From positions 1 through 64,000 of the forward strand of contig JASHOQ010000068.1 of assembly GCA_030041045.1 (NCBI GenBank): a stretch of DNA of 64,000 bases, in the 5' to 3' direction. The stretch comes from Acidobacteriaceae bacterium (GTDB lineage Bacteria; Acidobacteriota; Terriglobia; Terriglobales; Acidobacteriaceae). Below are positions 15,611-33,257 of the stretch, piece after piece; the first letter of the stretch is position 1, and each line of letters begins with the position of its first letter. The notes beneath the pieces are model-generated. The model was not told where the DNA came from. It searched no databases and was given only the letters and a program-made list of their open reading frames with translations. A program made the position numbers and the translations under genes.

Positions 15611-16513
15611 ATGACCGCGCCCAGCCCGCCTTCACGCTATCGCTTCGGCGTCTTTGAGGTTGACGTCCGCACCGGCGAACTGCGCCGAAAGGGCGTGCGC
15701 ATCAAGCTCAATGCCCAGCCTCTGCAAGTCCTTCTCCTGCTGCTCGCGCGCCCGGGCGAGCTGCTCACCCGCGAGGAAATTTCCCGCGAGCTCTGGCCCG
15801 ACGGCACCTTCGTCGACTACGAGCACGGCGTCAACTCCGCCGTCAATCGCATCCGCGAAGCCCTCTCGGACACCGCCGCGAGTCCACTTTTTATTGAGAC
15901 TCTCGCCCGCCGCGGCTATCGCTTCGTCGCTCCCGTGGAGTGCATTGCCGGCGGAGAAACCGCCTCCGCACAGCGCGAATCAAGGTTAACGAGCGAGACT
16001 GCGTCCGGACCTGAACCCGGATCCGCACCTGAGACTGCCGCAAAATCCCGCCCGCGCATGCTTGCCTCGGCCGAGGATCTCCCCAAGACACCGCACGCCG
16101 TGGTGCAGACGCTTTTTCTCCTTCTGCAGTTGATGTATCTCGGATTCTACGTGGGCGCGCTCGCGAACCTTGCCGAAATCGAGGACCTGCTCTCGCCTCT
16201 GCATCGCGCCACGCTGATCTTCACCATCCTCATCGTCACCGCGGCCATCCTCATTCCCGTCCGCGCCTTCGTCCTCTGCGCGGTTCTCTTCCGCGCGCCC
16301 GCCGTGCGCCGGAAATTTCTCAGCCTCTGGCCGTTTCTGCTCCTCGTGGATGTCCTGTGGTCTCTTTCGCCCTTTCTCCTTCTGCACCACATCGATTTCG
16401 GTCTCGCGGTCGCCTGCATGGCGCTTCTTGTCTACTCGCCCTTCGCCCAGCGCTCGCTCATTCTTATGGGCGCCGGCCGGACCCAGGGAGAAATTCCAGC
16501 CACGGTTCGTTGA
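15611..16513 (+). CDS. winged-helix (OmpR/CadC-like) DNA-binding domain fused to C-terminal transmembrane helices
   Basis: YRFGVFEVDVRTGELRRKGVRIKLNAQPLQVLLLLLARPGELLTREEISRELWPDGTFVDYEHGVNSAVNRIREAL...RRGYRFVAPV; several TM segments in the C-terminal half. Confidence 0.87.
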   Translation: MTAPSPPSRYRFGVFEVDVRTGELRRKGVRIKLNAQPLQVLLLLLARPGELLTREEISRELWPDGTFVDYEHGVNSAVNRIREALSDTAASPLFIETLARRGYRFVAPVECIAGGETASAQRESRLTSETASGPEPGSAPETAAKSRPRMLASAEDLPKTPHAVVQTLFLLLQLMYLGFYVGALANLAEIEDLLSPLHRATLIFTILIVTAAILIPVRAFVLCAVLFRAPAVRRKFLSLWPFLLLVDVLWSLSPFLLLHHIDFGLAVACMALLVYSPFAQRSLILMGAGRTQGEIPATVR

Positions 16514-16676: not shown

Positions 16677-18722
16677 ATGCCGCACGAACCAGTTGCTTTT
16701 ATCAGTCACTCGTCGCTCGACGGTGACACCGCGAACGCTGTCTGTCAGGCTCTTGAGCAGCGCAAGATCCGCTGCTGGATTGCGCCTCGCGACATTCCCG
16801 GCGGAGCATCCTGGGACGACGCCATCATCAAGGGCATCGACGCGAGCCGCGTCGTGGTGCTGATCTTTTCCTCCCATGCCAACCAGAGCATGCACGTCAA
16901 ACGCGAGCTGCATCGCGCCTTTGAAAAGCAAAAGGTGGTCATTCCCTTGCGCATTGAAGATGTCGAGCCGGGCGGCGCGCTCGAGTTCATTCTCATCGGC
17001 GTGCAATTGCTTGACGCCCTCGAGCCCCCGCTCGAAAACCATCTCGGCCCGCTCATTGATCGCGTATCCGCCATCGTGAATGCGCCGGCCGAGCCCAGAT
17101 CCTTCGCGTCTCCTTCGCTCGAGACCCGCGCTTCCACGGCGCGCGGGTTTGCGTCTTCAATCTCCGTGCATGCGTCAGCGCACGCCGTCGCCCTTGCGCC
17201 CGCGGTTGAAGCCCCCGCCGTGGCCCGGCAGGGCGCACCGTCGCCGGCTGGCGGCGAAGACACCAAAACCCTCCGCGTCGCTTTGCTCTACAAGCGCAGC
17301 GCGCAGCCCGACGATCACGTGCTCACCGTTCTCGAGTCCGGCCTGCGATCGGCCGGCCACGAAGTCTTCGTCGATCGCCACCTGCGCATCGGCGTTGAAT
17401 GGGCGCGCGAAATCGAACGCCAGGTGCGCGAGTCCGACGCCGTCATTCCCTTGCTCTCCGCCGCCTCGGTGCAGAGCGAGATGCTGGGCATGGAAATCCA
17501 GATTGCCTCCGACGCCGCCCTGCAGCAGTTCGGCAAGCCGCGTATTCTGCCCGTCCGCGTCGACTATGAGGAGGGCCTGCCCGAGCCGTTTTTCAGCATC
17601 CTCGGCAATCTCCAGTACCACCTGTGGCGCGACCCGAAGCACGACGCCGAGCTGCTTGCCCACCTGCTCGACAGCCTCATTGCGAAGGAGCAGCCCAAGC
17701 TCATCCGCGACGAAACCCCGGGCGGCGCCGTTCCGCTCGAGTCGCCCTATTACATCGTGCAGCCTTCCGATCTCGAATTCCACGCCGCCCTCGACCGCCA
17801 GGACAGCATCGTTCTGGTGAAGGGCGCGCGGCAGATGGGCAAAACCTCGCTGCTGGCGCGCGGACTGCAGCAGGCGCGCAAGGCCGGCAAGACCATCGCT
17901 CTGGTCGACTTCCAGAAGCTCAACCAGGTCAACCTCGCCGACATCGAAAGCCTCTACAAAGGCCTCGGCGGCATGATCGCTGACCAGCTTGACCTCGACG
18001 TCTTCCCGGAAGATGTCTGGCGCCCGGGGCGCGCGCCCAGCGTCAACTTCGAGCGCTACATCCGCCGCGAAGTCCTGGACAAAGCCGAGGGCCATCTCAT
18101 CCTGGCTATGGATGAGGTCGATCGCCTTTTCCCCTGTCCCTACGCCAGCGAGGTCTTCGGCCTGTTTCGTTCTTGGCATAACGAGCGCGCGGTCGATCCC
18201 GACGGACCTTGGAAGCGTCTGACCATCGCCATCGTCTACGCCACCGAGGCGCACCTCTTTATCACCGACCAGAATCAGTCGCCATTCAATGTCGGCACCC
18301 GCCTTGAGCTGCACGACTTCGGCATCGAGCAGGTGGATAAACTCAACCACCTCTACAAGGACCCCATCCAGACTGCCGAGGATCTCAAGCGCTTTTACGA
18401 CTTGCTCAGCGGCCAGCCCTATCTCACCCGCCGCGGATTCTACGAGCTCACCAACCAGGGCAAATCCGTTGACCGGCTGCTCGAAGTGGCTGACACCGAC
18501 GAAGGCCCTTACGGCGATCACCTGCGCCGCATTCTCGTTCTGCTGGCGCGCGACGAGCGCCTGCTGCAAGTGGTGCGCTCCTTCGTCCACGGCCAGCCCA
18601 TCCCCGACCCCACCAGCTTCTATCGCCTGCGCAGCGGCGGCCTAATCGTCGGCTCTTCGGCCCAGGACGCTCAGTTCCGCTGCGCCATTTACCGCTCCTA
18701 CCTTGCCCGCCATCTTGCCTGA
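16677..18722 (+). CDS. tandem TIR-domain protein with C-terminal AAA-like (AAA_35-type) ATPase
   Basis: TIR-1 VAFISHSSLDGDTANAVCQALEQRKIRCWIAPRDIPGGASWDDAIIKGIDASRVVVLIFSSHANQSMHVKRELHRAF; TIR-2 LRVALLYKRSAQPDDHVLTVLESGL...; Walker A GARQMGKTSLL; Walker B HLILAMDEVDRLF. Confidence 0.88.
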   Translation: MPHEPVAFISHSSLDGDTANAVCQALEQRKIRCWIAPRDIPGGASWDDAIIKGIDASRVVVLIFSSHANQSMHVKRELHRAFEKQKVVIPLRIEDVEPGGALEFILIGVQLLDALEPPLENHLGPLIDRVSAIVNAPAEPRSFASPSLETRASTARGFASSISVHASAHAVALAPAVEAPAVARQGAPSPAGGEDTKTLRVALLYKRSAQPDDHVLTVLESGLRSAGHEVFVDRHLRIGVEWAREIERQVRESDAVIPLLSAASVQSEMLGMEIQIASDAALQQFGKPRILPVRVDYEEGLPEPFFSILGNLQYHLWRDPKHDAELLAHLLDSLIAKEQPKLIRDETPGGAVPLESPYYIVQPSDLEFHAALDRQDSIVLVKGARQMGKTSLLARGLQQARKAGKTIALVDFQKLNQVNLADIESLYKGLGGMIADQLDLDVFPEDVWRPGRAPSVNFERYIRREVLDKAEGHLILAMDEVDRLFPCPYASEVFGLFRSWHNERAVDPDGPWKRLTIAIVYATEAHLFITDQNQSPFNVGTRLELHDFGIEQVDKLNHLYKDPIQTAEDLKRFYDLLSGQPYLTRRGFYELTNQGKSVDRLLEVADTDEGPYGDHLRRILVLLARDERLLQVVRSFVHGQPIPDPTSFYRLRSGGLIVGSSAQDAQFRCAIYRSYLARHLA

Positions 18723-18725
18723 GCT

Positions 18726-21700
18726 ATGACCATCGCCCCCGTACTGCCTGCCACCGAACGCAGCTTCTTCACCATCGGCGGCACGCTTCCCGCCAATGCG
18801 CCCAGCTACGTGGAGCGCAAGGCCGACAACGACATCTACAATCATCTCGTCGCCGGCGACTTCTGTTACGTCCTTACCTCGCGGCAGATGGGGAAATCCT
18901 CGCTCATGGTGCGCACCGCGGCGCGCCTCCGCAGCCACGGCGTCAAGGTCGCGCTCCTCGATCTCACCAAGATCGGCCAGAACCTCACCCCCGAGCAGTG
19001 GTACGACGGCCTGCTCGTCCGTCTCGGCCATGAGTTCGGCCTGGAAGACGAGGTCGACGATTTCTGGAACTCGAACGATGCCTCGATCAGCCGCCTCGGC
19101 CCCATGCAGCGCTGGATGAGCGCTCTGCGCAAAGTCGTGCTCGCCTCCGTCCGCGCAAACATCGTCGTGTTCGTCGATGAAATCGACGCCGTCCGCGGGC
19201 TTCCCTTTCCCACCGACGAGTTCTTTGCCGGCATCCGCGAGCTCTACAACGCCCGCACCTCCGATCCCGAGCTCCGCCGCATCACCTTCTGCCTGCTGGG
19301 TGTGGCCACGCCCTCCGATCTCATCCGCAACGTGCGCACCACCCCCTTCAACATCGGCCATCGCGTCGAGCTCAGCGACTTCACGACGGCAGAGGCCGGC
19401 CCGCTGCTCCACGGACTCGACCGTCCCCACGGCCTTGCCATCGATCTCCTCGACCGCATTCTCTGGTGGACAGGCGGCCATCCCTATCTGACCCAGCGAC
19501 TATGCGCCGCCATTGCCGCCGATCCCCACATCGACTCCATCCACGGTGTCGATCGCGTCTGCGACCGGCTCTTTCTTTCCTCGCGCGCCCGCGAGACCGA
19601 CGACAATCTGCTCTTCGTCCGCGAACGCATCCTGCGCAGCGAGGTCGATCGCGCCAGCCTGCTCGATCTCTACAGCCACATCCGCGCCGGCAAAGTCGTT
19701 CCCGACGACGACGCCAACCGACTCATCGACGTACTCCGCCTCTCCGGTCTAGTTTCCGTCCGCGCCGACCACCTTGCGGTGCGCAACGAAATCTACAAGC
19801 GCGTCTTCGATCCGCGCTGGATTCGCGTCAACATGCCCGACGCCGAGCTGCGCCGCCAGCGCGAGGCCTTCCGCAAGGGCGTGCTGCGCGCCGCGGCCAT
19901 TGCCTTCGCCGTCATCGCGGCCATTGCCGCCCTGGTGCTCAAGATCGGCGCCGACGGCCAGCATGTCGCCTTCCAGAATTACAGCGCCAACATGATTCAG
20001 GTTCAGCGCGCCTACGACAGCGGCGATTACGCCTCCGGCACCGATCTCCTGCGCCAGACCGCGGGCCTCGTCCGCCAGCCCGGCTGGCGCACCAAGACCA
20101 GCGCTGACGGCCACTCCTTCCTCATCAAGACCCTCTCCTTCATCCGCCGGCACATCTATCTCTATGCCCTCCTCAACGGCTTCGATAACAAGGTCGACCA
20201 GCGCTTCGAGTGGGGCTATCTGCGCGGCCGCTCCGATGGCAATGCGGCCTTCTCTTATATCGGGTACCAGGCAGAGGTCCGGGGTGTCGACCTCTCGCCC
20301 GACGGCAAACTCGCCGCGGCCGCCGCCTCTGACTCCACCGTGCGCCTCTTCTCGATCGAAGGGCTCAATGCAAATTCCAAAACCCCGCCGGCGCTGGTCC
20401 GCGCCCTCCTTGTCTTCGACGGCGCCCATTGCCCCCGGCCTTTTCTCGTCGTTACCCCCACGGCCGCCGGAAGCGTAAATCGCCAGTACGCCGACGAGCT
20501 GAGCCATTGCGATCGCCACTTCCAGCTTCCCTCCACCCAGCCCGGCATGCTTTCGGCAAAGTTTTCGCCCGATGGAAACTGGCTCGCCGTCAGCACCGGC
20601 AAGTGGAATTCCAACCGGAGCGGCGGCGGCACCGTCTACCTGTGGAGCACAAAGCCTCCCTACGCTGTCATTCCAGTACCTACGCAGCACGCTCAGGCTG
20701 TCGATACCGTCGTTTTCCGCCCTGGAACCCAGGAGTTTGCCACCACCAGCGAAGACTTGACCGCCGAGTTTTTCCGCATTACGCCTTCCGGAACCGTCCT
20801 CTTCGAAAACAAGTTCGACGCCGCTCTGCACTGTACCGGCATGCCGGGCTGCCCAAGCCGGGGCATGAACGCGGCGGCCTACTCACCCGATGGAAGCACT
20901 TTCGCCATGGCTTTCGGCGACGGCCATCTCTGGATTCAGGGCCGGCCGAGCCCCATCGTCGCCGATGTCTCCGGACTCATGTCGATCGCCTTTTACGACA
21001 ACAACCGGATCTTTTTGGGCACGCGCGACGGCCGCGTGGTGGAATACGTGCTCGCTCGCGATCCCGCGAAAGACGAAGCGCCGAAGACCTTTCTTGAAAC
21101 CGGGCAGGGGCTGGTCACATCGCTCACTTTTTCTGACGATCCGTACCGGAGCGTTCTGCTGACCACCGGGAGCACCGGCACCGTACTGGTTTGGAAGCTG
21201 GTCAAAGACGAGCACGACCGGCACATTGTTCTCCAGCATGGGGACAGCATCATGCTCCGCGGCGAGCGCGACGTCGTCTACAGCGCCGCCATCTCCAGGG
21301 ATCAGCGAGTCATCGTCTCCGGCGGCGCCGATGTATTTATCGGATCCTCGAGCGGCCGTGTTTCCTTCTGGATGGAGCAGCCCGCTCCCGGTCCACCGGC
21401 TCCCGGCTCCCCCTCGCCCGGTCCCTTCGACGCCGTCACCTGGGAATCGCAGCCGAAGTTCGTCGAATCGGACGGCGCGGTTCAGGCGCTGGCCTATTCT
21501 CCGCAGCCGGCGGCCTGCGCACCAGCGCAATTCCCGCCCCAGATTGCCGCCATTCGCGGTGTCTCCCGGAGTACCGCCAGCGATGCACCGACGGAAATCT
21601 CCTTCATTCCCCTCGATCCCGCCACCGGCAAGCCGGATTTGAACCGCATCGACGCCCGCTCCGGCCACGTGTCCACCGGCAAGGCCTTGGCCTGGTCGCC

Positions 21701-22703
21701 CGACTGCCGCTTCGTCGCCACCTCCGCAACCGACGGCACCGTCCTGCTCTGGAATGCACTCACTCATTCGTCCACGCCGCTCGATCTGCCCCGCGAGAAT
21801 GGAGGCGGCCCCATCGCCATCGCCGCTCTCTCTTTTTCTCCCGATGGCTGGCTCGCCGGCGCGGGCAATCTGAGTCCTTCCCGTGCCTTCACCTGGAACG
21901 GGCGCAAGTACGCCGGCCGCGGCATGATCTTTCTCTGGCGCCCGGCCGAGTCGCCCGCTCTCCGCTCCGTGGTCCAGCCTTTTGCCGCGCCGCGACCCAA
22001 TGACCGGCAGTCCGCGCCCGCGGCCATGACCCTCCAGACCCTCGCTTTCTCCGGCGACGGCCGCTCGCTTGCACTTTGCGGCTCCGATGCCACGGTTCAG
22101 ATCTGGTCGGAAGGCCAGCTCCTTGAGGAAACTCCGTCCTCGCCCCGCATCCTGAATGGGACAGAAATGCCCTCGAGCCCGCCCTCCTGGGTGAGCCAGC
22201 AGCGCCTGCAGGGCTCGTGCAATGCCGTCGCCTTTTCTCCTGACGGTCAGTGGCTGGCCGCAGGAACCAGCTCCCGCGAGGTCGCCGTCTGGTTTACCGG
22301 CAACTGGACCCGCGCCGTCGGCACCTGCGATACCAGCGCCATCTACGGCACTTCCAGCACGCCGCACTGTGTCCCCTCGCCGCCCCGCGCTGACGCCGCC
22401 ATCAACGCCGTCGCCTTCTCACCCGATAGCCAGCGCCTCGCCTACGGCACCGCCGACGCCAATATCTATCTCTGGGGCGTTACCTCTCAGCTCCCCTTGC
22501 CCGTTATCGCCGTTCACTCCGGCGGCGTGCTCACGCTGGCCTTTTCACCCGACGGCCGCTGCATCGCCTCCGGCAGCAATGACGAGACTCTGCGCTTCAC
22601 TTGTCAGGACGATCCCGCCCACGTGCAGAATCTCGTCAATCGGGTCATCAAGACCGATCAGTACCGCGCCGACGCCGACAACTGGATCGCCTTCGCGCAG
22701 TGA
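18726..22703 (+). CDS. AAA-like (AAA_35-type) ATPase - TM helix - WD40 repeat protein
   Basis: Walker [16 protein letters not shown], Walker [32 protein letters not shown], many WD40 blades ([45 protein letters not shown]); starts 3 nt after the TIR gene stop. Confidence 0.9.
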
Positions 22704-27790: not shown

Positions 27791-30475
27791 ATGCGTTGGC
27801 TCAATCAATTCGCCATGAAACTTCACATGCTCTTCGCGCGCAATCGCGCCGGCGCTCGCCTCGATGACGAGCTCCGCTTCCATCTCGATCGCCAGACCGA
27901 AGAAAACGTTGCGGCGGGAATGGGCCGGGAGGAAGCCCGCGCAGCGGCCCTGCGGTCGTTCGGCAATCCCGCTCTGCTGCGCGAGCAAACCCGTGCCGCA
28001 TGGAGCTGGAACTCGCTCGAAGCGCTCTTCCGGGACCTCCGCTTGAGCTTTCGTACCCTCCGCCGCACGCCCGGCTTTACTCTGGTCTCGGTCGCCGTCA
28101 TCGCTTTGTGCATCGGCGCCAGCACCTCGCTCTTCACCATCGTGCGCTCGGTGCTCCTGCGCCCGCTTCCTTTCCGCGACCCTTCGCAACTGGTCATGAT
28201 TTACGAGCACTTCCGCGCGCCCGAGCTGAATCAGCCCAACTACAACTTCAACCCTGTCGCGCCCGCCGATTTCTACGACTGGCGTTCCCAGACCAACGGT
28301 TTTGGAGACATGGCCGCCTGGCGCTATGCGCAGTTCAACCTCACTGGTGAGCGTGGCGAGTTGCCGGAAGTCATCATTGCGCGCGGGGCCACTTACAACC
28401 TGTTCTCGCTTCTCGGTGTGCAACCGGCTTACGGTCGCAGTTTTACCCAGGACGAAGATCGTCCCGGCGAAAGCGTCGTCATGCTCACCTGGAGCCTGTT
28501 CGAGCGCCGCTTTTCGGGCGACCCCTCAATTGTCGGCAGGAGCATTCATCTTGACGGCCAGCCCTATACCGTCGTCGGCGTTCTGCCCAAGAACTTCACC
28601 TATCCCGACTCAACCGTGCAGGTCTGGGTTCCTTTTGCCGCCGCGGGCATTCCACCCGAGGTGCTGCGTCACCACGATTTTCATTTCAGCCGCGTGGTGG
28701 CCCGTCTCCGGCCCGGCGTCAGCCTCGCCAATGCCATTGCCCAGGTCGACGCGCTGCAATACCGCATTCACATGCAATACCTCAACGCGCCGGTCGCCGA
28801 GGACGCGGTCTCGCGCTCCATCACCGAAGACCTGGCCCAGGACGTGCGCAAGCCGCTGCTCCTGCTCATGGGCGCGGTCGGCTGCATGCTCCTGATCGGC
28901 TGTCTCAACGTGGCCAACCTGCTCATCGCCCGTTCCGCCGTGCGGCAAAAGGAAGTGGCCATCCGCGGCGCCCTGGGTGCGCGCCGCTGGACGCTCATTC
29001 GCGAGCAGCTCATGGAGAGCCTGCTCATCTCGCTCGCCGGCGGCGTGCTCGGAGTCGCGCTCTCGTTCTCCGCCACGAAATGGCTCGCCCACGCCTGGAA
29101 AGAGCTTCCCAGCGCGCAGTCCATTCACGTCGATGGCATGGTGCTCGCCTTTGCCTGCGCGCTGGTTCTGGCTGTCGCGCTTCTTTCCGGTCTGCTTCCG
29201 GCCATCTCTTCCACGGCCAAATCGGTCTTTGCCACGCTGCAAACCACCGCGCGCACCACCAGCGCCGGCCTCGGCCGCACCACGCTGCGCAAGGCGCTGC
29301 TGGTGGTTGAAATCTCCGTCACCGTCGTGCTCCTCATCGCCGCAGGCCTCTTGCTCAAGAGCTTCGTCCGCCTGCGCGCCACGGACGTGGGCGCCGACAC
29401 CAGAGGCGTCCTCACCCTTTACTACAGCCTGCCCGTAGAGAAGTACTCGACGCAGGAAAAGATCAACGCCTTCAATGAGGCGCTCCTCGCGCGCCTTCGC
29501 GCCCTGCCTGGCGTCCGCGCCGCGGCCCTTGGTTCGGTGTTTCCCGGAGCAGGCTACGGGGGCGACGATATCTTCCTCGTCCGCGAACATCCTCCCATTC
29601 CGCCGGGCACGCTTCTTCCTGACGCCATGAACCGCATCGCCGATCCCGGCTACTTCCAGGCTCTCGGCATTCCCCTTCTGCGCGGCCGCTTCTTTACCAG
29701 CGACGATCGCGGCGCCCAGGGCGAAAAGATCATCATCAGTCACCTGCTCGCGCAAAAGTACTTCCCCGGCGAAGATCCCATCGGCAGGCATCTGCACGTT
29801 CCCGCCTGGGACGTTCCGGGTCAGCCTGAAACCAACTTTGAAATCGTGGGTGAAGTGGGCGACACGCTCTGGCAGGTGGGCCAGCCCGACACGGCCACGA
29901 TGTATACACCGGCTCTCGCGGAGCTCCCCAAGGTCAACGGATTTGCCCTTGCCGTGCGCACCGCTTCCGACCCGCTGGCCATCTCTGTTCCCGTGCAGAA
30001 GCAGATCGCGGCCCTCGATCCCGAGCTGCCCGTCTCCGATGTGCTCACCCTGGATCAAGTCATCGGCCAATCTCTGGCCAGCGCCGACCTGAGCGCCACG
30101 CTGGTTCTTGCCTTTGCCATTCTCTCGCTCGTCCTTGCTTCCGTCGGCCTGTACGGCGTGCTCTCTTTTCTTGCCTCGCAACGCACGGTGGAGATCGGCG
30201 TCCGCATCGCGCTCGGCGCGCAGCGCGATCAGGTTCTTCGCCTCATGCTTTTGGACGGCCTGCGTCCCGCGCTCTTCGGGCTCGTCCTCGGTCTCGGCGC
30301 CGCCGCTGCCGCCGTGCGCCTCATCCGCTCCATGCTCTATGAAACGCAACCCGTCGATCCCGCCGTTTTTGCCGCCGTAGCCGCAGTGCTGCTCCTGGTG
30401 GCCGGCCTTGCCTGTCTGGCGCCCGCCTGGCGCGCCGCGCGGCTCGATCCCATGCAGGCGCTGAGAACGGAATAA
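27791..30475 (+). CDS. ABC transporter permease, ADOP (acidobacterial duplicated orphan permease)/MacB-like
   Basis: N-terminal LDDELRFHLDRQTEENVAAGM, FGNPALLREQTR; FtsX/MacB permease halves (GCLNVANLLIARSAVRQKEVAIRGALGARRW; GVLSFLASQRTVEIGVRIALGAQ); C-term DPMQALRTE. Confidence 0.93.
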   Translation: MRWLNQFAMKLHMLFARNRAGARLDDELRFHLDRQTEENVAAGMGREEARAAALRSFGNPALLREQTRAAWSWNSLEALFRDLRLSFRTLRRTPGFTLVSVAVIALCIGASTSLFTIVRSVLLRPLPFRDPSQLVMIYEHFRAPELNQPNYNFNPVAPADFYDWRSQTNGFGDMAAWRYAQFNLTGERGELPEVIIARGATYNLFSLLGVQPAYGRSFTQDEDRPGESVVMLTWSLFERRFSGDPSIVGRSIHLDGQPYTVVGVLPKNFTYPDSTVQVWVPFAAAGIPPEVLRHHDFHFSRVVARLRPGVSLANAIAQVDALQYRIHMQYLNAPVAEDAVSRSITEDLAQDVRKPLLLLMGAVGCMLLIGCLNVANLLIARSAVRQKEVAIRGALGARRWTLIREQLMESLLISLAGGVLGVALSFSATKWLAHAWKELPSAQSIHVDGMVLAFACALVLAVALLSGLLPAISSTAKSVFATLQTTARTTSAGLGRTTLRKALLVVEISVTVVLLIAAGLLLKSFVRLRATDVGADTRGVLTLYYSLPVEKYSTQEKINAFNEALLARLRALPGVRAAALGSVFPGAGYGGDDIFLVREHPPIPPGTLLPDAMNRIADPGYFQALGIPLLRGRFFTSDDRGAQGEKIIISHLLAQKYFPGEDPIGRHLHVPAWDVPGQPETNFEIVGEVGDTLWQVGQPDTATMYTPALAELPKVNGFALAVRTASDPLAISVPVQKQIAALDPELPVSDVLTLDQVIGQSLASADLSATLVLAFAILSLVLASVGLYGVLSFLASQRTVEIGVRIALGAQRDQVLRLMLLDGLRPALFGLVLGLGAAAAAVRLIRSMLYETQPVDPAVFAAVAAVLLLVAGLACLAPAWRAARLDPMQALRTE

Positions 30476-30542
30476 ACTGCGATCGGCCCCGCGGCCGGAA
30501 ACAGAAAATGGCCGCGGCAAGGAATTCCAAACGGAGGCCGCA

Positions 30543-33257
30543 ATGCGAGGGCTCGATCGACTGGCGATGGCGATGCGGGTGCTGTTCGGGCGCAGCCGCG
30601 CCGGTGCACAGCTCGAGTCGGAACTGCGCGATCACCTCGAACGGCAGACGGAAGAGAATCGCGCCGCCGGTATGGACCACGAAGAAGCGCGCTACGCCGC
30701 CCTGCGCGCTTTCGGCAATCCCGCCCTGCTGCGCGAGCAGGTCCGCGCCACCTGGAGCTGGGGATGGATCGACCGGCTGGCGCAGGATCTTCGCTTTGCC
30801 GCCCGGCAGATTCTCCGCGCTCCCAGCTTTGCGCTGATTGCGATTCTCACTCTCGCGCTGGGCATCGGCGCCAACACCGCTATCTTCAGCCTGACGCACG
30901 CGCTGCTCCTCAGCACCCTCCCGGTTCCGGCACCGGACCAGCTGGTCCGCCTTGCCATCGACCTCCATAATCCTCGCGCAGAGGCCAACAACGCTCCGCT
31001 CAACGTCCCTTTTGCGCAATTCCTAAACCAGCATGCGCAATCGCTTCGCGGCGTCTTTGGCTGGTCGGTGTACGATTTCGTTTTCACTGAGGCCGGCGCC
31101 AGTCGTGGTTTTCGTGGCGCGATTGTCAGTGGCAATGCCTTTCAGGTGCTCGGTGTGCGCCCCGTTGCCGGCCGCCTGCTCACTCCCGCCGACGACCAGC
31201 CCGGCGGCGGGCCCGACGGATGGTCCACGGTCATCAGCCATCGGATGTGGGTGGGCCACTTTCATGCAGATCCCTCGGTGATCGGCCGCCGCATTACCAT
31301 CACCGATCACAGCGTCACCATAGTGGGCGTCGCCCCCCAGGGTTTTGAGGGCATGGTTGTCGCGGAGCACCCCGACTTCTATCTGCCCATCGAGTTTTCC
31401 GCGGCGCTCAACAACAATGAAGATCAGCTTCACTCCGCAGCCGGGCTGTGGCTGATGACCTTTGCGCGGCTCAAGCCCGGCATGAGTCGCAGGCAGGCGC
31501 AGGCCGAGATCAAGACTCTATTCCCGGTAATGCTCGACGATCTCATGCCGCCTGCGGTCCGTCACCTGCCCGTGGTTGAGCGCGCCACCCTCGACGTGGA
31601 CGATGCGCACAGCGGCTGGACCGAACTGCGTCTCGAATACACGCGGCCTTTGCTGCTGCTGCAGATCCTGGCCTGCATAGTCCTTCTCATCTGCTGCGCC
31701 AATCTCTCGGGGCTGCTGCTGGCCCGGGCTTCTGCTCGACGGCATGAGTTTGCGATTCGCGGTGCGCTGGGCGCCGGGCGTTTGCGTCTCATGCGCCAGC
31801 TCTTCGTCGAGAGCCTGATGCTCGCTCTTCCCGGCGCCCTGCTCGGAATCGGCCTCGCCTGGCTGGCCGGTCCCTGGATTCTGCACTCCCTCGACAGCCG
31901 CCATTCCCAAATCCTTCTCTCGCCCAAGCCCGACGCGACGGTTCTTGCCCTTTCCGTCCTTTGCGCGTTCGTTTGCGCGCTGTTGTTTGGCACGGCTCCA
32001 GCGTGGGTTGCCGGCCACACCAACATTGACGCTGCGCTCAAAATCTCCAATCGTCGCGCCGCCCTTAGCGGGGGCGCAGCGCGACGGTTCTTCATCCCCA
32101 TCCAGGTGGGTCTTTCGCTCACCCTCGTGGTTCTGGCGGCGCTGCTTGGCGCCAGTGTCGTCCGGCTGCATTCCGACGATACCGGCTACCGCATGCAGGA
32201 TGTTGTCTTCCACTACGCCGATTTTGGCCGGCTGCCGCAGAAGGGCGCTGCTCTCGTCGATCTTTACCGCCGCATTACCGCGCGCATGGAACAGATGCCC
32301 GGAGTGGACGCCGCCAGCGCCGTTGGCGTGCTTCCGTTTTATGGCTGGATCTTCAGCGAGTCCCTCACTTCCGCGAGCGATGCCGCCCATGCCAAAACCA
32401 CCGTGACCGATATCAACAACATTGGCGCCGATTATTTTCGCGCCGTGGGCGTCCCCATCCTGGCCGGCCGCGATCTACGCAACAACGACGAAGACCTACA
32501 CTCCTGCATTGTGAACGAGAGTGCCGCGCGTCTCTTCTATCCCCATGGCGCGGCCGTCGGCAGCACAATGCACCAGGTATCGCACGACATGGGGAACGGC
32601 ACGACCACGGTCGACGACTGCCAGATTGTCGGGGTGGTGCAGGATTCGAAGTATGACTCGCTTCGCGAGACCCCGCCGCCGATTCTCTACAAGCCATACT
32701 TCGACGCGAGCGGGCCCGTTTCGAGCCTGTATTTCGCAATTCACGGGCGCAGCGTGGCGGCCGCAGAAACGGCCTACCACCAAGCCATTCACGAACTGGC
32801 GCCGGCCAGCCCTGAAACCGATCCCGCCGCACTGAGCGAGCTGGCCGGCGGCTCCATCGCCCGCGAGCAACTGCTCTCCGTGGTCTCAGGCTTTTTCGCC
32901 GCCCTCGGCCTCCTGCTCAGCGGCATCGGCATCTACGGCCTGGTGGCGTGGAATGTCTCCCAGCGCACCATGGAGATTGGCGTGCGCATGGCCCTGGGGG
33001 CGACGCGCGGCCACGTCTTCCTCATGATTCTCAGCCAGACCACCTCGCTGCTCGCCATCGGTCTCGCCATCGGCGGCGTGGCCGGATTCTTTGCCGCGCG
33101 CACGGTTGGCAGCTTCCTCTACGAAACCCGCGCAGGGAATCCCGGTGTTTTTCTGGCCTCGGCCGGTGTTCTCGTCGCCATCGGCATGGTGGCCGCGATG
33201 CTTCCGGCGCGCCGCGCCGTGAACATCGATCCGATGCAGGCGCTGCGCACGGAATAG
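30543..33257 (+). CDS. ABC transporter permease, ADOP/MacB-like (second copy)
   Basis: Same architecture: LESELRDHLERQTEENRAAGM, CANLSGLLLARASARRHEFAIRGALGAGR, GLVAWNVSQRTMEIGVRMALGA, DPMQALRTE. Confidence 0.93.
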   Translation: MRGLDRLAMAMRVLFGRSRAGAQLESELRDHLERQTEENRAAGMDHEEARYAALRAFGNPALLREQVRATWSWGWIDRLAQDLRFAARQILRAPSFALIAILTLALGIGANTAIFSLTHALLLSTLPVPAPDQLVRLAIDLHNPRAEANNAPLNVPFAQFLNQHAQSLRGVFGWSVYDFVFTEAGASRGFRGAIVSGNAFQVLGVRPVAGRLLTPADDQPGGGPDGWSTVISHRMWVGHFHADPSVIGRRITITDHSVTIVGVAPQGFEGMVVAEHPDFYLPIEFSAALNNNEDQLHSAAGLWLMTFARLKPGMSRRQAQAEIKTLFPVMLDDLMPPAVRHLPVVERATLDVDDAHSGWTELRLEYTRPLLLLQILACIVLLICCANLSGLLLARASARRHEFAIRGALGAGRLRLMRQLFVESLMLALPGALLGIGLAWLAGPWILHSLDSRHSQILLSPKPDATVLALSVLCAFVCALLFGTAPAWVAGHTNIDAALKISNRRAALSGGAARRFFIPIQVGLSLTLVVLAALLGASVVRLHSDDTGYRMQDVVFHYADFGRLPQKGAALVDLYRRITARMEQMPGVDAASAVGVLPFYGWIFSESLTSASDAAHAKTTVTDINNIGADYFRAVGVPILAGRDLRNNDEDLHSCIVNESAARLFYPHGAAVGSTMHQVSHDMGNGTTTVDDCQIVGVVQDSKYDSLRETPPPILYKPYFDASGPVSSLYFAIHGRSVAAAETAYHQAIHELAPASPETDPAALSELAGGSIAREQLLSVVSGFFAALGLLLSGIGIYGLVAWNVSQRTMEIGVRMALGATRGHVFLMILSQTTSLLAIGLAIGGVAGFFAARTVGSFLYETRAGNPGVFLASAGVLVAIGMVAAMLPARRAVNIDPMQALRTE

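Follow-up and report, generated by a model that had tools for sequence, protein, structure and literature searches.

Paralogous AAA_35 ATPases, one with TIR domains and one with a membrane-anchored WD40 region, as a candidate two-protein signaling relay

The neighboring genes A (TIR-TIR-ATPase) and B (ATPase-TM-WD40) of an Acidobacteriaceae bacterium probably constitute a two-protein signaling relay that is built on two paralogous STAND-like ATPases of the Pfam family AAA_35. As judged from sequence comparisons, the two genes are coupled, output and sensor ends are strictly split between the two chains, both ends are modular, and the ATP sites are conserved. Hetero-oligomerization of the two ATPases, sensing across the membrane, and activation of A by B are what we infer for the working of the pair.

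Both genes lie on the forward (+) strand of the window (the whole 64,000-nucleotide stretch of contig JASHOQ010000068.1 that was analyzed), as do all other window features given below. Gene A (16677-18722; open reading frame, Pfam, AlphaFold2 model) encodes the output or effector partner of 681 aa, and gene B (18726-22703; open reading frame, Pfam) the sensor partner of 1325 aa. They are separated by 3 nt, the TGA of A at 18720-18722 being followed by GCT and then by the ATG of B at 18726, as a preliminary description of this DNA had stated. Within A, TIR1 (residues 8-99; 16698-16973) occupies the variable output position and scores above the cut-off for both TIR_2 and ThsB_TIR. TIR2 (residues ~200-335; 17274-17681) lies directly N-terminal of the ATPase, an arrangement found in many family members, and Pfam recognizes two stretches of TIR_2 in the protein (E=8e-41). 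The AAA_35 ATPase (residues 348-677; 17718-18707) contains Walker A (K389), Walker B (D479-E480), the arginines R498 and R504, and a GxP motif (GQP, 579-581; G579-P581), and the chain stops 4 aa past this domain. The match to PF14516 is full-length (248 bits, E=1.4e-73). Membership in this family was set by the curated cut-off of 27 bits, which both A and B (90.3 bits, E=1.4e-25) pass. The earlier reading of A as two TIR-like domains plus an AAA-like ATPase was therefore correct, with the ATPase now assigned to AAA_35 and carrying the STAND-type GxP motif.

AlphaFold2 models A (mean pLDDT 81.7, pTM 0.52) as two TIR domains, joined by a linker of poor prediction quality, followed by the ATPase. 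Among solved folds, the model best matches 2qen (an archaeal ATPase), RPP1 (a plant TIR-NLR), Sso1545, Avs3, EfAvs5, ORC/Cdc6, and CED-4. STAND NTPases are recognized by a P-loop, an acidic pair in Walker B, and a GxP motif beyond the ATPase core. The motifs of both A and B include all of these, with structural matches for the A model only, and the suggestion of a STAND-like ATPase made in the preliminary description is upheld for the fold of A by 2qen, RPP1, Avs3, and CED-4. A search by sequence for a solved AAA_35 structure returned only P-loop similarity to RecA. In TIR NADases, the alpha-C helix carries the catalytic Glu. When TIR1 is aligned with Cat1 (9mud_K), a CRISPR TIR protein, E77 of TIR1 pairs with the Cat1 Glu in the same helix, so that the fold and a Glu at the catalytic position, on which the earlier reading had been made to depend, were both found. 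In TIR2, the corresponding residue of this helix is E273, a position with Glu in 55 and Gln in 7 of 63 TIR2-type domains, the only domains counted here, and the nearby E268 is conserved in 62 of the 63. As the E273 position is Gln in seven domains, TIR2 may be structural or a scaffold rather than enzymatic. Most likely, the output of the window pair is TIR-based NAD+ processing or TIR signaling.

Gene B begins with its AAA_35 ATPase region (residues 1-385, Pfam match 19-263; 18726-19880), which has the Walker A motif TSRQMGKS with the lysine K57 and with the first Gly replaced, Walker B at D151-E152, and GxP at G251-P253 (GHP). A hydrophobic segment (residues about 382-408) with a single predicted TM helix (residues ~387-408; 19884-19949) follows, and a helical stalk in a low-confidence part of the model (19950-20240) leads from it to the predicted sensor, a WD40 beta-propeller region (20241-22601; Pfam WD40 E=5e-45) that is probably periplasmic. 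The C-terminal half of B is ~50% identical in the relatives L033 and L034. The AlphaFold2 model of the sensor is poor (pLDDT 54) and strand-rich, with about 55 strands in addition to the stalk. Of the architecture proposed earlier, paralogous ATPase, TM helix, and WD40 repeats were recovered, and the number of about ten blades was neither confirmed nor contradicted: five WD40 stretches are significant by Pfam versus 9-10 visible SPDG-like motifs, next to the strands of the model.

The two ATPases are homologous, with 30% identity over 248 aa (E=3e-28, far above chance), and they are the only AAA_35 proteins in the 5.2-Mb host genome, which is 99.6% complete. All 97 A and all 66 B proteins compared retain intact Walker A and Walker B motifs, but every B has T, D, N or A in place of the first Gly of the P-loop. 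All 97 A and 65-66 of the 66 B also have the GxP motif, and two Arg are nearly invariant in A and in B. The domains around the ATPases are distributed in opposite ways. In 99 A proteins, a median of 313 residues precedes the ATPase and a median of 1 (maximum 21) follows it; in 68 B proteins the medians are 9.5 residues before and 686 after. No chain with both an output and a sensor end was found among these 99 A and 68 B. The split of effector and sensor over two related ATPases, which had been proposed from the window as unlike the usual single-chain TIR-STAND, is hence a property of the family, with A ending at the ATPase and B beginning with it. ATPase distances of A and B correlate over 55 pairs (Mantel r=0.86; permuted maximum 0.41), a correlation to which the kinship of the host species contributes.

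A lack of conserved co-occurrence in relatives had been named as refuting a coupled pair, and this was not what the searches showed. Among 300 genomes from the same family, 12 had the A core and all 12 also had B; sampling 396 genomes across the phylum gave 8 more with A, again all with B, for a total of 20/20; two further genomes with a weak, partial AAA_35 match were assigned to neither class. A scan with one genome per species yielded 80 loci. Across all loci retrieved, the 99 non-redundant A genes comprise 64 with B nearby, 16 solo genes, and 19 near contig edges. With solo genes defined by at least 1.5 kb of sequence on each side and the 19 edge loci left out, A and B are adjacent at 64/80 loci. 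The gap is below 300 bp in 61 of these 64 pairs, and B lies directly downstream on the same strand in 56. When the genomes behind solo A loci, which come mainly from Verrucomicrobiota, were searched whole, with the PF14516 match (its score and its span) used to tell A from B, B was found elsewhere in 10/11; Aromatoleum (G662) is the sole case of A without B. Two of these genomes (G658, G660) have a single A and a single B, which lie on separate contigs. By these comparisons, A and B are a coupled, conserved unit that is inherited together. Copy numbers of A and B are unequal in some genomes: G654 has one A and five Bs, and two Verrucomicrobiota loci, L135 (3566-10869) and L138 (2662-9225), have one A followed by two tandem Bs, which suggests that one executor can serve several sensors.

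The module is rare and patchy, e.g. with any match in only 2 of 289 genomes of the phylum of G654, one of the two being G654 itself. It was found in at least seven bacterial phyla. The records include Acidobacteriota, Verrucomicrobiota, Armatimonadota, Proteobacteria, Planctomycetota, and others, with the proviso that labels of MAGs can be wrong, and complete plasmids with the pair come from Cyanobacteria, Chloroflexota, and Abditibacteriota. It is not a phage gene family, as phage records gave TIR-like matches only and a relative of A was present in a single one of 2.9 million viral contigs. This relative (L207) has 35% identity and may sit on a misassigned host contig.

Around the conserved ATPase cores, outputs and inputs are exchanged. 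Pfam assigns TIR, SEFIR plus TIR, Ser/Thr kinase with or without TIR, caspase plus TIR, DUF4145 plus TIR, trypsin, a Trans_reg_C winged helix, and BTAD to the N-termini of A, together with class III cyclases, usually with TIR and in several cases under the curated cut-off. Plasmid-borne A proteins add CHAT, CHAT plus TIR, trypsin plus TIR, and a kinase that ends in a LuxR helix-turn-helix. The C-termini of B comprise WD40, PEGA/carboxypeptidase-regulatory, TPR, PDZ, DUF2092, GUN4, PAS-GAF, and WD40 plus peptidoglycan amidase. Outputs of a regulatory kind (winged-helix, BTAD, LuxR, kinase, cyclase) are frequent. A quick search on the A ATPase tree (97 rows) gave at least 30 changes of output class, a count that is only approximate because some labels of "TIR only" stem from truncated or unassigned N-termini. 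An output swap is illustrated by L033, which is 72% identical to window A over residues 172-680 and has an N-terminal domain without BLASTP similarity to the window TIR1. WD40 and TPR sensors are each paired with several outputs, in a classification by phmmer that left several B unassigned, including window B, which Pfam shows to be WD40. Kinase outputs keep HxDxKxxN in 25/25 and a DFG-like motif in 23/25, and the A1 profile search was dominated by kinases of other members. The module is thus not peculiar to TIR or WD40 and is instead a chassis with many outputs and inputs. In a Nostoc plasmid (L204:7565-11893), the WD40 repeats of B are followed by a peptidoglycan amidase, and this sensor may also act on the cell wall. 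In Chlorohelix (L205:573-7272), gene B precedes gene A. This A, a kinase-AAA_35 protein, ends in a LuxR-type helix-turn-helix; no other A that was seen has a domain C-terminal of its ATPase.

In the mechanism that we propose, the recognition domain of B, outside the cytoplasm in most members, would meet a signal that alters the nucleotide state of the ATPase of B. This ATPase would then recruit the ATPase of A into a hetero-oligomer via the conserved Arg and GxP elements, and the clustered output domains of A would become active. The active output would be TIR NAD+ processing or signaling in the window, and phosphorylation, cyclic-nucleotide synthesis, proteolysis, or DNA binding elsewhere. 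A would serve as a shared hub wherever a genome has a single A but several Bs. For the window pair, the WD40 propeller would signal across the membrane to the TIR output, plausibly leading to NAD+ depletion or a TIR-made second messenger, and the trigger would be whatever the propeller binds.

Sensing from outside depends on the topology of B. One hydrophobic segment lies immediately C-terminal of the ATPase in 59/64 B proteins, and a comparable segment is rare in A (8/99). Lys and Arg are more frequent before than after this segment in 46 B and less frequent in 5, with 5 versus 1 in the window protein; the N-in/C-out orientation is thus a prediction from hydropathy and charge. An extracytoplasmic side also fits the peptidoglycan amidase, PEGA, and DUF2092 domains that occur at the C-terminal position, and most members of the B family probably have their sensor outside the cytoplasm. 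Alternatively, the C-terminus of B could be cytoplasmic, with the hydrophobic segment as a peripheral or hairpin anchor of an NLR-like intracellular sensor at the inner membrane face. WD40 propellers are usually cytoplasmic and PAS-GAF domains usually intracellular, and the PAS-GAF B protein of Abditibacteriota has no TM segment after the ATPase; together with the five members of reversed charge, this would fit such an anchor, but the bias in 46 of 51 biased cases as well as in the window, and the amidase, PEGA, and DUF2092 domains at the same position, make it unlikely. That A and B each act alone as homo-oligomers, and are adjacent through shared ancestry or operon convenience, is very improbable. 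Each ATPase does have its own intact Walker motifs, and A does occur without a neighboring B, mostly in Verrucomicrobiota, yet B is still present in 10 of the 11 solo-A genomes and the divergence of A and B is correlated. Since none of the 99 A and 68 B carries both ends on a single chain, A or B alone would also be without input or without output.

A role in defense, as suggested in the preliminary description, is a further possibility. In a dedicated antiphage or abortive-infection system, B would recognize a phage-derived or membrane-damage cue and the TIR domains of A would deplete NAD+. The retained E77 of TIR1 and its alignment with Cat1, weak matches of A to PADLOC TIR models, fold hits to Avs3, Avs5, and RPP1, the patchy distribution (12/300 family genomes), the plasmid copies, and death-type effectors among the outputs (caspase, CHAT, trypsin, TIR) are all consistent with such a system. 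However, PADLOC, run on the 111 neighbor genes alone in search of known defense genes, found no recurrent defense family, only isolated Septu, methyltransferase, and TnpB/Cas12-like hits. The window neighbors look like housekeeping genes (AsnRS-like, alanine racemase-like, ABC permeases; by eye from translations), and the neighborhood hence gives no indication of defense. GC and GC3 of the pair are also the same as in the surrounding DNA, and winged-helix, BTAD, LuxR, kinase, and cyclase outputs are common in the family. The defense assignment thus found no specific support, and we regard a dedicated antiphage system as rather doubtful; an antiphage role of the version with TIR is possible.

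Two further observations concern the neighborhood. Just upstream of A, the window encodes a Trans_reg_C winged helix with hydrophobic segments (15611-16513), a type that is fused directly to AAA_35 in L043, L044, L076, L087, and L088. As a third component the upstream gene was rejected, because as a separate gene it is not kept next to the pairs of relatives. Downstream (27791-33257), two large tandem MacB-like ABC permease genes have similar N-termini, by eye only.

The closest precedent for the AAA_35 relay is the two-gene nSTAND2 operon (Kaur, Burroughs, Iyer, Aravind, eLife 2021, PMC8195603, Fig. 6C). As described with that figure, two adjacent genes encode STAND NTPases that are predicted to form a hetero-multimer, the operon is mobile, and variable effectors, mostly GT4 or HEPN, sit on the partner with the eroded NTP site. 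The AAA_35 pair differs in its NTPase family, in the intact site of its effector partner (97/97 A), and in its TM-anchored sensor, which has no counterpart in the nSTAND2 architecture as presented there. PF20702 (nSTAND2) gave no match in A up to E=0.1 and was not among the best 25 of 37 families for B; L044, a relative of A, has a sub-threshold hit (E=0.0095). Taken as a composite, A and B resemble single-chain Avs and TIR-STAND proteins and the plant TIR-NLR RPP1, with N-terminal output, STAND-like ATPase, and C-terminal repeats, but the parts are divided between two paralogous ATPases (in all 99 A and 68 B), and the sensor is set off from its ATPase by a TM helix. Plant sensor-helper NLR pairs (NRC network) likewise have separate sensor and executor NTPases, sometimes with one executor for several sensors, an analogy without claim to specific homology and with the difference that the AAA_35 sensor is membrane-anchored. 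As in two-component systems and membrane Ser/Thr kinases, a TM helix connects a sensor with a cytoplasmic output that can be exchanged, although the coupling would proceed by two ATPases and not by phosphotransfer. Thoeris (ThsB TIR) and Cat1 share the TIR1 family and the Glu position of A, but here the TIR is fused to a STAND-like ATPase and the pair itself contains no ThsA: in PADLOC, no ThsA model matched A or B, the two proteins searched. TIR1 scored above the ThsB_TIR cut-off. In the open-access journal literature, no description of the pair was found under AAA_35/PF14516 or under a combination of TIR, WD40, and AAA-like domains, and no mention of PF14516 was found. Two DGR papers (PMC7517822, PMC10907252) list some of the same domain types in the parts concerned, where the pair is not described, and the AAA_35 pair is apparently unnamed so far.

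With at least seven phyla and many outputs and sensors, the module looks like a widespread signaling relay rather than a one-off immune receptor. Perhaps, though this stays tentative, the AAA_35 pair represents an unnamed, phylum-spanning class of transmembrane signaling that parallels two-component systems, in which a membrane-anchored sensor ATPase activates a soluble paralogous ATPase with about ten kinds of output by STAND-type hetero-oligomerization, TIR being one output of many and one executor sometimes serving several sensors. If so, bacteria would possess a plug-and-play membrane receptor made from NLR-like ATPases, with sensor and executor separate as in plant NLR pairs, and the AAA_35 "AAA-like" proteins of Pfam, annotated without a function, would gain one. 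As a single ATPase chassis joins immune-type (TIR, caspase, CHAT) and regulatory outputs (kinase, cyclase, transcription factor), the relation of STAND-type to ordinary signal transduction would become testable.
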